Shown here in pieces: positions 30,566 through 37,485 of a stretch of DNA of 64,000 nucleotides. The position numbers were made by a program, and so were the translations under genes. The stretch's first letter is position 1; each line of letters starts with the position of its first letter. The notes under the pieces are model-generated. The model saw only the letters and a program-made list of their open reading frames with translations, was not told where the DNA came from and searched no databases. The stretch comes from Helicostylum pulchrum (Eukaryota > Mucoromycota > Mucoromycetes > Mucorales > Mucoraceae), in assembly GCA_025677825.1 (NCBI GenBank), contig JAIXMO010000008.1:372001-436000 (forward strand). The letters run 5' to 3'.

Positions 30566-31119
30566 CTGTCAGTAAGAAAGCATAACTTTTTGACTCATAC
30601 GAAAACATTTACTATACGCTAAAAATAGAAGTAATAATAATTACCGGTATCATTGTGTAGATAACAAGAGTTACACACTAGAGAAATGAAGTTTAGGTAC
30701 ACTGCAGGAATCACTCATATGTATTTTTTAAGAGCAAGATAATGACCAAATGAACTAAATACGAAAGAAAATGTACCCGCCAGGTGTAGAGTGCAGATAG
30801 AGTATATATAGTTTATAAAAAGTAAAAAAAAAAAGTAAAGATAATAATTGAAAAAGAAGTACATTTGACATTAAGTAGCTGATCACAGTTGCATCGTTTA
30901 TTTATTTGAAACTACATCATTTAAGTATTTGAGAGTTTACAGATCAAGCACCGTAGAGGATTAAAATAAAAGAAATAAAACCCTTGCGCTATTATTTTAG
31001 AGTACCAACAACGAGGTTAAAAATGTTTGTTCGTATTATTCGTTTGGTGATCCCACTCCCCCTTTTTTTTGTATGTGTGTGAAAGCATAGTCATTCCATA
31101 CAATTAGACACTTCTAAAA
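30566..31119. other. Intergenic sequence left of the inverted repeat
   Basis: No gene or clear repeat seen. AT-rich, with a poly(A) tract around 30823–30832 and a poly(T) tract at 31062–31070. Confidence 0.5.
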
Positions 31120-31163
31120 ACACACTTGAATCAAAGATAACGTAATATTTTATTTTTATATAT

Positions 31164-31415
31164 TTAAGTGTCATCGAAAAATGGCCCTCTCGCTCCAAAG
31201 CGACATGGCTGTTGACTTTCACACGGCCACCAGCCGGATTTGCAGGATCCGCTTCCATAATGAACATTGTTATAACTACCACAAATATCAGAAGCGACCT
31301 CCAAGCATATGGGACCGGAACATCCACAGCAATAGTATGAGCCTTCAACAGCGTAGCTTTGCAACATTACGAAAAATAACAAAATAGAAACAATAGACAA
31401 ATTCAGCCCTAACAT
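31164..31415 (-). CDS. Small secreted eight-cysteine protein (copy L)
   Basis: 83 residues, intronless, ATG at 31415 (the longer frame upstream opens at TTG inside the promoter). A signal peptide MLGLNLSIVSILLFFVMLQS-YA with a clear hydrophobic core and likely cut after YA precedes a mature part of about 60 residues with eight Cys: YYCCGCSGPICLEVASDIC, then GSCKSGWWPC and QPCRFGARGPFFDDT. Four disulfides are possible. Size, leader and cysteine density fit secreted effector/defence-type peptides, but the cysteine pattern matches no family I can name. Copy R in the other arm has the same leader and cysteines but different residues in the loops after Cys5 and Cys7. Function unknown. Confidence 0.75.
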   Translation of the reverse strand: MLGLNLSIVSILLFFVMLQSYAVEGSYYCCGCSGPICLEVASDICGSYNNVHYGSGSCKSGWWPCESQQPCRFGARGPFFDDT

Positions 31416-31479
31416 TTTTACCAATAATAAAAAAGAGATAATAAAAAAATAACAAAAAAAAGAGAAAGTAAGAAACAGC

Positions 31480-31488
31480 TTTTTTATA
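31480..31488 (-). promoter_or_regulatory. TATA box of copy L
   Basis: TATAAAAAA on the minus strand about 65 bases before the ATG, followed by a T/C-rich leader. The same site and leader are unchanged in the other arm. Confidence 0.6.
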
Positions 31489-31615
31489 CACAATTGAAAC
31501 CAGTGCTTTAATTTAGGTTTTTTTTTTGGCTTATACTATTTGATTGCAACCAACTGTTTGATATTGTTTACAATAAATACATGTAGCATTTTTACTTTAT
31601 ATTTATTGGCAGCTA

Positions 31616-31850
31616 CATAGAAATAAACTTTCGTTCTAGATGTGGGGCTTTTACTACTGTACTTTTAACAGAAGCCTTTCTTTGTGTCACTACAAAAAAT
31701 AATATTGTCGTTTTAGATGCTAAAAGAGCTTCGCCATTGCCTATTGCGACTATGTTTACTTATGAAGCTTCTGATATGTACCGCCGTATGTCATACACAA
31801 GCCAAAGCTACGATTTATTTGTGTATTTCTATAGTTTTTGTTTCTATTAG
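31616..31850 (+). pseudogene. Exon-like coding relic in left arm
   Basis: After an acceptor-like TTATTGGCAG the + strand stays open for about 78 codons: INFRSRCGAFTTVLLTEAF, LCVTTKNNIVVLDAKRASPL, PIATMFTYEASDMYRRMSYT, then a stop at 31850. It has the composition of a folded, β-rich domain but no start and no upstream exon. An identical copy is in the right arm. It points away from the cysteine-rich gene. Family not recognised. Confidence 0.35.
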
Positions 31851-32303
31851 TATTCATAGATAGTAAAATGAGTTACAACCTCCTCCTTTTGCATCGTTCT
31901 GTTTTAATTGTTTTACTTTTTCGAAATGTAAGACGGGTGGCAAAGTTTATCTGTAATAATAAAGAGAAATAAACATGGCCGTCTATTTTAATGCAAATAG
32001 CATTTGATTTCATTGTTTTTTTTCCCAAATAAACAAAGGAGTGATAGAGAGATGAGGCCGAGTTATATTTGATTAAAAAAAGAAAATTTAAATGGTTCTG
32101 TTATCTAAAACAAACAAAAACAAGTTTTACAATTCTTGTTTTAATTAAACGTTGTATCTTTATGCGGAATATTACCCCAAGTAGGAGTCTTTGATTTGAA
32201 TATCTTAAAGTAGCACTTACCTATTCTCATTCTATAAATATCTAAGACAATATTTTTGCTTAATTGATGCAGTTGCTATTGCATACAAACGTTTTATAGG
32301 TAA

Positions 32304-32495
32304 GCCGAACTGGCGAAATTAACTGAACGAAAAGTTAAGGTGCCGAAACGCACGCTCATCAGACACCAAACCACCAAAGGTATTACTTTATCTAGACAAA
32401 AGGACCGCGAACATGGAAGTCGGGATCTGCTAGTTTCGAAGCGCGTAGCGACTCTCCTACCAAATAAACTAAACCTGGAAATGAATGGCTCATAA
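32304..32495 (+). pseudogene. ATG-less coding relic, GC-richer than surroundings
   Basis: 63 sense codons with protein-like, very basic sequence: AELAKLTERKVKVPKRTLIR, HQTTKGITLSRQKDREHG and SKRVATLLPNKLNLEMNGS, closed upstream by TAA. Possibly a transposon or foreign fragment; unrecognised. Confidence 0.3.
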
Positions 32496-32599
32496 GTGTG
32501 TGTTATCCATACTTTATAGTTACTGAAAAACCAAAAAAATAAAATAAAGAGTAGCCATTTGTATATTTTATAATCTATTTGAGATATGAGACAACTTTG

Positions 32600-33080
32600 G
32601 ATTATGATGACATGTTTAGTAGCCTTAGAGATATTTATAAGTATGGATACAGCACAGATGTAGATTTAGAAAAAGCCTTCAAATGGTAAGTTAAATTTGT
32701 GAATTGCTTTCCCAAAGACAGTATGCTTAACTTCGGATTAATGTAAATGGAAGGCTCAGGAACTGAAGCTAATAAGGACCTGGTACTATATTGGTTTCGA
32801 ATGGAAGGTCTATCGAAAATGAAAATGCGAAAAGCTATATCAATTAAATCGATATAAATTCAACTCAGGTAACTAGCCCAGACTGTTTATAATAAAGAAG
32901 TTATGCAGCTGTTGATACAAGAAAAGCAGTTACAAGGTTTTCAATTAAAAAGTATGTCATTAAAGAAAGTTATTATGATGACAGAAGATAATTCATTAAA
33001 AAGGAATGCGATAAATAGTAGAATAAATGACAATGAGAAAGCCACGGTCGAAGAAAAGGCCAGGACTGACAAAGTTCTTT
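32600..33080 (+). pseudogene. Sel1-like-repeat protein relic
   Basis: FSSLRDIYKYGYSTDVDLEK-AFKW is a Sel1 repeat (Y-GYST-D-KAF-W). After a donor-like G|GTAAGT and a gap comes FGLM, a TAA stop, then EGSGTEANKDLVLYWFRM, a second Sel1 repeat with the usual Tyr codon replaced by the stop. Further on a Lys/Glu-rich frame (VMQLLIQEKQLQGFQLKSM) runs to a stop at about 33080. The repeats (about 36 residues, G-G-x2-D-KA-W) are diagnostic of Sel1-like adaptor proteins; the copy is dead. Confidence 0.55.
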
Positions 33081-33776
33081 AAGAAGAGAAAGAAGGGAAG
33101 AAAAAACCGGTAAAGCTGTTTCACGTTGAAGGAACCAAAGAATTGCAGAAAAAATTCGATTATCTTCTTTCAATTCCTTCGACCTGAAAGAAAGACAGAA
33201 CCGAAAAAAAATATTCCAACAAAGCAAATGAAAGCAAATATACATATTTCTGACACGAAGTTAATTTAATAATCTCCAACAAAAAAGATGATTAAAAGAG
33301 AAAAAAATTTAGTGGTTTTGTGAAATTGAATTTGACCCTTACATCGAATAGTGGTAATAGTGATATTAAAGCGGAGGACTGAAGACGCCCAGGAGAAATA
33401 TATCCTTAAATAAAGCCTATACCGTTAAATAGAGCCGCTACTATACTCGGGATAATATTCTGCGTAAAGATGAAAGCAGTCAATGCGTAATACAATGCTT
33501 AATTAAAACAAGAATTGAAAAACGTTTCTGTCTGTTTTTATTTCGTATGAGATAAAGGACGATTAGGTCTACTTTTTTTTAGTAAAACATAGCTTGGCCT
33601 CATCCCTTTGTTGGCTTGAAAAAATAAATCCCGTTTGTGTCGAGTAAAATAGACAGGTATGTTTATTTTATTACAAATAGGCTTCGCCACCCGTCTTACA
33701 TTTCGAAAAAGTAAAACAATTAAAACAGAACGATGCAAAAGGAGGAGGTTGTAACTCATTTTACTATCTATGAATA

Positions 33777-34011
33777 CTAATAGAAACAAAAACTATAGAA
33801 ATACACAAATAAATCGTAGCTTTGGCTTGTGTATGACATACGGCGGTACATATCAGAAGCTTCATAAGTAAACATAGTCGCAATAGGCAATGGCGAAGCT
33901 CTTTTAGCATCTAAAACGACAATATTATTTTTTGTAGTGACACAAAGAAAGGCTTCTGTTAAAAGTACAGTAGTAAAAGCCCCACATCTAGAACGAAAGT
34001 TTATTTCTATG
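33777..34011 (-). pseudogene. Exon-like coding relic in right arm
   Basis: Exact counterpart of the open stretch at 31616–31850, with the same stop codon. Preservation of the frame follows simply from identity of the arms and is not independent evidence for function. Confidence 0.35.
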
Positions 34012-34138
34012 TAGCTGCCAATAAATATAAAGTAAAAATGCTACATGTATTTATTGTAAACAATATCAAACAGTTGGTTGCAATCAAATAGTATAAGCCA
34101 AAAAAAAAACCTAAATTAAAGCACTGGTTTCAATTGTG

Positions 34139-34147
34139 TATAAAAAA
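34139..34147 (+). promoter_or_regulatory. TATA box of copy R
   Basis: TATAAAAAA, 65 bases before the ATG at 34212, with the same T/C-rich leader as the other arm. Confidence 0.6.
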
Positions 34148-34211
34148 GCTGTTTCTTACTTTCTCTTTTTTTTGTTATTTTTTTATTATCTCTTTTTTAT
34201 TATTGGTAAAA

Positions 34212-34463
34212 ATGTTAGGGCTGAATTTGTCTATTGTTTCTATTTTGTTATTTTTCGTAATGTTGCAAAGCTACGCTGTTGAAGGCTCATACTATTGCTG
34301 TGGATGTTCCGGTCCCATATGCATGGAGGTTGCTTCTAATATTTGTGCTGGTAATGACAATGTTCATTATGGAAGCGGATCCTGCAAATCCGGCTGGTGG
34401 CCGTGTGAAACTGACAGGGGATGTCGCTTTGGAGTGAGAGGACCATTTTTTGATGACACTTAA
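34212..34463 (+). CDS. Small secreted eight-cysteine protein (copy R)
   Basis: 83 residues, ATG at 34212. Leader identical to copy L down to the DNA level through CCGCSGPIC-coding sequence (about the first 110 bases). After that 17 bases differ; by my count 14 change amino acids and 3 are silent. Replacements cluster in MEVASNICAGNDN (copy L: LEVASDICGSYNN) and in PCETDRGCRFGV (copy L: PCESQQPCRFGA). All eight Cys and the GSCKSGWWPC core are kept. Both copies are open and have the same promoter, so both are probably expressed. Function unknown; a secreted, fast-changing cysteine-stabilised peptide is the best description. Confidence 0.75.
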   Translation: MLGLNLSIVSILLFFVMLQSYAVEGSYYCCGCSGPICMEVASNICAGNDNVHYGSGSCKSGWWPCETDRGCRFGVRGPFFDDT

Positions 34464-34507
34464 ATATATAAAAATAAAAATTACATTATTTTTGATTCAA
34501 GTGTGTT

Positions 34508-36247: not shown

Positions 36248-37485
36248 ATGCAAATCGGTAAATATCTTTCTCTCGCTCTTCTTGGTGCCACGGCCGTTGC
36301 TGCTCAAACTCAAAACCAGACACAAACCGATAACAATAGCACAATCTATGATCTGTTATCTGCTCCCAACAATAACTTGAACGCAAGCAGATTTGTTGGT
36401 TTAGTTAACTCTGATCCTGGCTATCAACCTATTGTCAACTTATTGAAAAATCCCGGTAACTTGACATGCTTTGTTCCCAGCGATGGTGTCCTTAATAAAG
36501 TCTTGATGGTATGGAAGGCCTACGCTAAACAACATAAAATTAACGTCACCGGTGATTACCCTCCTGCCAATATGAGCTACAATAACTATACTGTTTCTGA
36601 TTTAATCACATATCACATTGTGGGTGATAGAGTCAATTTGACCAACTTGACTGAACATAATATCTCTGTTAGCGTTGTGCACTCTGTCTTAAACGATAGT
36701 AAAGTCGATCACCTTGGTACAGGCTTGCCTATCCTTATCGGAAATAACGCCTCTTATGCTGAATTCCATAATCAAACTTGGATGAAAGCTAACAGTAGCT
36801 ATCTCGAATATGAAGTTGGTAACGGTCACGATGATACTGATGTAGATATCAAGGATGTTAATGCTACAAATGGTCTTATCAATATCATTTCATCAGGTAA
36901 CGATACATTTCTTTATTATTATTATTTTACAAATAATAAGCTAATATGTATATATTTCTACTCTAGTTTTAATTCCTCCTATGTCACCTACTACTGTCAT
37001 TAAGGAAGTTGATGACATTGACGGTTTTGAAGAATTACTCAAGAAGTATCCTATTATTGGAAATACCTTGAATAGCACTACAAACGTAAGTTTATTTATT
37101 TATTTTTTAAAAAAGAACGCCAATTTACTAACATATATTTTGTCTGTAGTTTACACTCTTTGCTCCTGCATCTGACGCATTAAAGAAGGCCAACCTTACC
37201 GGAATGAACAACGATACTATTCAAGCTTTAGTTCGCAGCCACTTAGTCGAAGGTGTTTACTATACTCCCAACATCACTGCTAATGCTCTTACCAATGATG
37301 GTCAAACTAATTTCACTACCTTCAGTAATATCACCTTCCCTGCTTACTTTAATAGCACATCAGGCTACATTACCTTGAACAACACTGCTCGTATTGTTGA
37401 TTCCAATATTTTCTTCAACAATGGTGTTATGCATGTAGTTGATAGTATCATTACTAATGATACTGAACACGATCATGACGATTAA
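36248..37485 (+). CDS. Secreted fasciclin (FAS1) protein, two domains
   Basis: Signal peptide MQIGKYLSLALLGATAVAA, then two FAS1 domains over three exons (36248–36897, 36967–37086, 37150–37485). Domain 1: LLKNPGNLTCFVPSDGVLNK ... YTVSDLITYHIVGDRVNL ... GLINIISSVLIPP. Domain 2: IGNTLNSTTNFTLFAPASDA ... ALVRSHLVEGVYY ... GVMHVVDSIITN. The FAPSD-type and H1/H2 motifs are present. More than fifteen N-x-S/T sites predict heavy N-glycosylation. No GPI signal: it ends in an acidic His/Asp tail (TEHDHDD). FAS1 proteins mediate cell-surface adhesion; a cell-wall/adhesion role is inferred. Confidence 0.9.

Follow-up and report, generated by a model that had tools for sequence, protein, structure and literature searches.

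We analysed a stretch of 64,000 nucleotides (nt) from the mould Helicostylum pulchrum (contig JAIXMO010000008.1, positions 372,001 to 436,000; hereafter the window) that carries two small genes, A and B, each encoding an 83-residue, predicted secreted peptide with eight cysteines. Gene A lies at 31164..31415 on the minus strand and gene B at 34212..34463 on the plus strand, and each is a single open frame that requires no intron. The genes stand head to head in an inverted repeat, their ATG codons about 2.8 kilobases (kb) apart, in a window whose GC content is 29-38% in 2-kb steps. Without gaps, the repeat measures 812 nt at 97% complementarity, with 1,708 nt between its arms. When gaps are admitted, homology covers about 1,065 nt, reaching inward to about 32183 and 33444 and outward to 31119 and 34507 at lower identity, so that arm A occupies 31119..32183 (minus strand) and arm B 33444..34507 (plus strand). 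An earlier note on this DNA had described two 83-residue reading frames in opposite arms of an inverted duplication, and their coordinates and strands are confirmed here; its account of the duplication was right for the identical and ungapped part and missed the diverged, gapped homology further inward and outward.

Divergence along these arms is distributed in three steps. Beginning at the inner end, 58 mismatches fall among 215 aligned bases, with 5 gaps in addition, then no difference in 637 nt, and then 17 differences in 141 coding nt. The diverged inner flank spans 31942..32183 in arm A (minus strand) and about 33443..33685 in arm B (plus strand). The identical tract, at 31305..31941 in arm A (minus strand, mapped from the ungapped repeat) and 33686..34322 in arm B (plus strand), comprises the promoter, the 5′ leader and the first 111 coding nt. 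It leaves outside it the mature-peptide coding parts of A (31164..31304, minus strand) and B (34323..34463, plus strand), followed by a 3′ flank with 2 mismatches and one 1-base gap in 45 aligned bases. The 526 nt upstream of the two genes are identical both in the arm comparison and in a whole-genome search, as the earlier description of identical signal-peptide DNA, leader and some 525 bases of flank had it, and TATAAAAAAG starts 73 nt upstream of the ATG. When the 84 difference events were permuted over 1,133 columns (an extra 38-column gap at the 3′ end, which reflects the unequal ends of the chosen stretches, being counted as one event), none of 100,000 permutations gave an identical run of 637 nt or more (mean 64, maximum 168), and none of 100,000 did so when the inner flank was left out (862 columns, 21 events). 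The tract is thus an island of identity, longer than expected by chance, between diverged homologous stretches. Since 526 of its 637 bases are upstream noncoding sequence, coding constraint cannot explain it. One section of this upstream region (33870-34031) also matches a single other place in the genome, at 312816-312983 of contig C84, with 75% identity.

The inner flank differs by 27% mismatches as well as by insertions and deletions, and the duplication is therefore old. That the flank could consist of two independent insertions of a dispersed repeat was considered and rejected. A dispersed repeat of about 140 nt does lie at 33307..33448 (no strand assigned), with 41 other matches listed at 71-84% identity (40 of 84 candidates scored), and a 52-residue frame over it has no Pfam match. 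The matches listed stop at 33445-33448, where arm B begins, and the inner flank of arm A (31960-32200) matches only itself and the flank of arm B in the genome search (two candidates, both scored). The simplest reading is therefore that the arms date from one old inverted duplication at a single locus and that the identical block within them is young. In a separate part of the genome, on contig C57, two pairs of repeat copies stand at mirrored positions with equal identities (459750-460267, plus strand; 477590-478127, minus strand), a layout suggestive of a further inverted duplication whose arms would be some 17 kb from each other.

All 17 nucleotide differences between A and B fall in 14 codons within codons 38-80 (codons 38, 40, 43, 46-49, 67-70, 75, 77 and 80). 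Eleven of these codons, with 14 of the differing nucleotides, replace the amino acid, and three (40, 77 and 80) are silent; the codon comparison upholds the earlier count. The eight cysteines (residues 29, 30, 32, 37, 45, 58, 65 and 71) and the GSCKSGWWPC motif are the same in both peptides, again as first described. The differing codons had been said to cluster in the loop after Cys5 and the loop between Cys7 and Cys8. Both clusters stand, with four codons each, and the distribution is slightly wider than that, with three further codons between Cys4 and Cys5 and three after Cys8. Codons 67-70 can also be aligned by assuming a one-base loss, a one-base gain and 4 substitutions instead of 7 substitutions; a shift of frame between Cys7 and Cys8, if true, would mean fewer independent replacements.

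We found no acceleration of the mature part. In pairwise Nei-Gojobori estimates, which rest on few sites, codons 38-83 of A and B have a nonsynonymous divergence (dN) of 0.134 and a synonymous divergence (dS) of 0.136, a ratio of about 1.0, while comparison with copy C, a third intact gene of the family on the same contig, gives mature ratios of 0.36 for A (0.44/1.21) and 0.43 for B (0.474/1.112). For the whole A-B gene, leader included, dN/dS is 1.03. At 17 of 141 positions, the mature part has changed less than the noncoding inner flank at 58 of 215 (12% versus 27%; Fisher p 0.0008), a significant difference in the direction opposite to that of a fast-evolving peptide, and the two variable blocks at 17 of 75 are similar to the flank (Fisher p 0.54, the blocks having been trimmed after seeing the data). 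Because divergence is lower in the mature part than in the flank and mature dN/dS does not exceed 1, acceleration is not needed to account for the differences, although with so few sites weak positive selection may be compatible with them. The earlier note had seen in the pair a frozen leader joined to a mature part under diversifying selection, and had named beforehand a dN/dS check with additional copies. With copy C included the ratio stays at or below about 1 in the mature part, and the contrast between leader and mature part loses its force as a sign of rapid change, given a noncoding flank more diverged than the mature part and a promoter and leader that were probably homogenised recently. 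Comparison with copy C does show the reading frames of A and B to be under constraint, judged from replacement and silent counts (Fisher p 0.0012 for A-C and 0.0023 for B-C).

Taken together, these data very probably reflect an old inverted duplication followed by recent gene conversion from arm to arm, which took in the promoter and leader and left the mature parts outside the tract. The two genes would belong to a small family of secreted disulfide-rich peptides and would have arisen long ago, when about 1 kb was duplicated in inverted orientation. A recent conversion between the inverted arms would then have carried a stretch of 637 nt or more, with the promoter, the 5′ leader, the signal peptide and the first 37 codons, across to the opposite arm and ended inside the coding sequence, so that the older divergence would still be visible in the mature parts beyond it. 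From the pattern of identity and divergence along the arms we infer that the island is due to conversion and not to some other copying event.

Several points weigh against this reading. The data come from a single genome, and one conversion event is not separable from repeated ones. The mature dS of 0.136 is below the divergence of the flank, which hints at an earlier conversion, and selection may also have shielded the mature part from being converted. The mature part also holds a 54-nt core without differences (chance probability 0.0026), which on our reading calls for strong constraint or else for another short tract. The presence of the identical block in both arms is seen at the level of the assembly. 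In addition, stronger matches to the dispersed repeat made up the matches listed in that search, the partner arm not being among them, so that it excludes nothing weak for the flank of arm B, and the search with the flank of arm A alone carries the point.

Among the alternatives, one holds that conversion recurs along the arms and that converted mature parts are selected against since A and B have different targets, so that the loops stay distinct. This would fit a tract that stops within coding sequence 5′ of the variable loops, the location of 14 of the 17 nucleotide differences in replacement codons, and the retention of all eight cysteines and the core in both copies. We nevertheless consider it improbable: mature dN/dS is about 1.0 for the A-B pair and below 0.5 when either gene is compared with copy C, the loops are no faster than the flanking noncoding DNA, and the same observations are explained by a single tract, one end of which fell at random. 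A more elaborate form, in which the inverted pair is a device that repeatedly homogenises a shared promoter and leader while selection shields the mature loops, in a peptide family that has a new fold and is confined to this mould lineage, strikes us as somewhat less probable again.

Another possibility is an error of assembly, with one consensus wrongly given to two diverged arms over 637 nt. There is a single assembly, and assemblers err in repeats. However, the assembly tells the arms apart on either side of the block, all within a single 832,797-base contig, and we regard such an error as very unlikely. A weaker indication in the same direction comes from a source labelled 'lgn', in which copy C is present whole; for A and B, no outside source is listed. 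We take 'lgn' tentatively to be a short-read collection, and if it is, a real repeat would be expected to break its contigs.

The proposal that the genes duplicated recently and that positive selection then quickly altered the mature loops draws on the identity of leader and promoter and on the clustering of replacements in cysteine-framed loops; the 27% mismatches and the gaps in the inner flank, which mark the duplication as old, and pairwise mature dN/dS values not above 1 make it still harder to accept. Least credible of all is a recent, near-perfect inverted duplication in which one mature part was later replaced by conversion from a third copy, a suggestion already raised in the earlier note, since, despite other family members on the same contig, the inner flank has diverged too, the genome searches yielded no donor for either mature part among the copies found, copy C (57% identical in protein to B and 59% to A) and the relics D and E described below are too distant, and of the 17 positions where A and B differ, 7 carry the base of A in copy C, 5 that of B and 5 neither. 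The split of 7 to 5 over the 12 informative sites means that both A and B changed after their separation. Conversion thus probably did happen here, having replaced the promoter and leader and not the mature part.

A and B belong to a family of which we found three intact genes (A, B and C) and two relics (D and E), all within about 240 kb of the same contig (C147). Further copies in this genome had been named as something to look for, and C, D and E answer to that. Copy C, recovered in genome searches with the proteins, lies at 607584-607336 on the minus strand and encodes 83 residues with seven cysteines, Cys4 being replaced. Relic D begins at 641871 and is interrupted by stops and frame breaks. 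Relic E, found by a profile search (expectation value (E) 1.4e-7 for its first piece), lies at about 608392-608605 in the orientation opposite to C. Copy C and relic E are placed head to head about 0.8 kb apart (607336-608605), as are A and B, and this arrangement raises the possibility that inverted pairing recurs in the family. Because the profile search took in 264 kb of a 32.19-Mb genome, made up of the window plus 200 kb of the contig (456001-656000), two is a minimum for the number of relics. In whole-genome searches that used single proteins or relic pieces as queries and scored the best candidates, no members came up on other contigs. Gene A also shares a downstream stretch with relic D (+387 to +487 of A, 101 columns, 75% identity, E 3e-14) where B shows no match, and A therefore probably retains the older surroundings.

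The products of A and B are predicted to be secreted, disulfide-rich peptides. Mean hydropathy of B is 1.83 over residues 1-22 and -0.27 over residues 23-83, and the hydrophobic N-terminus, so judged, precedes a short mature part with an even number of cysteines in A and B and seven in copy C. Neither Pfam (best E 0.19, to DUF6299, for B and none for A) nor the sequences of the PDB (best E 0.61 with B as query) gave a significant match, so by these searches the peptides fall in no family known to either resource. In the protein database, B as query matched only itself, and the three-copy alignment retrieved only itself plus one sequence from the 'lgn' source that is identical to copy C; no protein of the family from Thamnidium elegans was among the results. 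These searches depend on shared words of 5 residues and may miss remote relatives, and short genes are often left out of annotation. A structure prediction with AlphaFold2 from three sequences only reached a mean predicted local distance difference test score (pLDDT) of 52.9 and a predicted template modelling score (pTM) of 0.28. No such family appeared among the papers listed from the open-licence literature, judged by titles and the beginnings of abstracts, and on cysteine-rich secreted orphan proteins of Mucorales no paper came up at all. The earlier suggestion of an undescribed secreted cysteine-rich family is thereby supported, and the family appears lineage-restricted as far as searched. 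A secreted peptide of this kind might function extracellularly, most likely against other microbes or together with a substrate or partner.

The spacer between the arms contains a broken remnant of a Sel1-repeat-like gene at 32601..33102 on the plus strand (Pfam Sel1 E 0.16, below the cut-off). Its DNA is 70-74% identical to places elsewhere in the genome, several of them in long open frames, and related open frames of up to 880 residues occur at 240-242 kb of the same contig, with others at 203 and 304 kb and on contig C100. Neighbouring the peptide pair are a gene for a 509-residue CBS-PB1 protein and open frames with a Fasciclin domain at 36248-37485 of the window (Pfam E 1.8e-5 for the first, 36248-37003). 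Among the best 120 of 7,996 scored candidates from the protein database, the closest match to the CBS-PB1 protein was from T. elegans, with 98% identity over all 509 residues, and the next match with a name, from Mucor saturninus, reached 85%. The genome of T. elegans is published as 31 Mb with 33.15% GC (PMC7928374).

Families such as conotoxins, defensins and fungal effectors combine a conserved leader with a variable, cysteine-framed mature part. A and B resemble them as short secreted precursors with conserved leader and cysteines and variable loops. They differ in that no sequence relationship was found, mature dN/dS does not exceed 1, and the identity of the leader would be due to conversion. 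Among fungi, lineage-specific small secreted cysteine-rich proteins form families that evolve by birth and death, and the peptides described here likewise have orphan status, copies on one contig, intact genes beside relics and no requirement for an intron. The cysteine spacing of A and B is C-C-x-C-x4-C-x7-C-x12-C-x6-C-x5-C; no library entry matched by sequence, the spacing itself not having been searched.

The reasoning applied to the tract follows that of Sawyer's Geneconv, in which a conversion tract is recognised as an island of identity between paralogues. Such detection has been applied to defensin-like and nucleotide-binding leucine-rich repeat (NLR) genes of Arabidopsis, with tracts in signal and mature parts counted apart (PMC5731061). 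As in that work, a significantly long identical segment between paralogues is surrounded here by diverged sequence; unlike the cases it presents, the arms of H. pulchrum are inverted, the ATG codons are about 2.8 kb apart, and the tract consists mostly of promoter and upstream noncoding DNA (PMC5731061).

Our analysis thus adds a family of secreted cysteine-rich peptides that we did not encounter in the open-licence literature searched. It also cautions against reading diversifying selection from nothing more than an identical leader joined to a variable mature part in two paralogues: the DNA just outside the identical block must be checked first.

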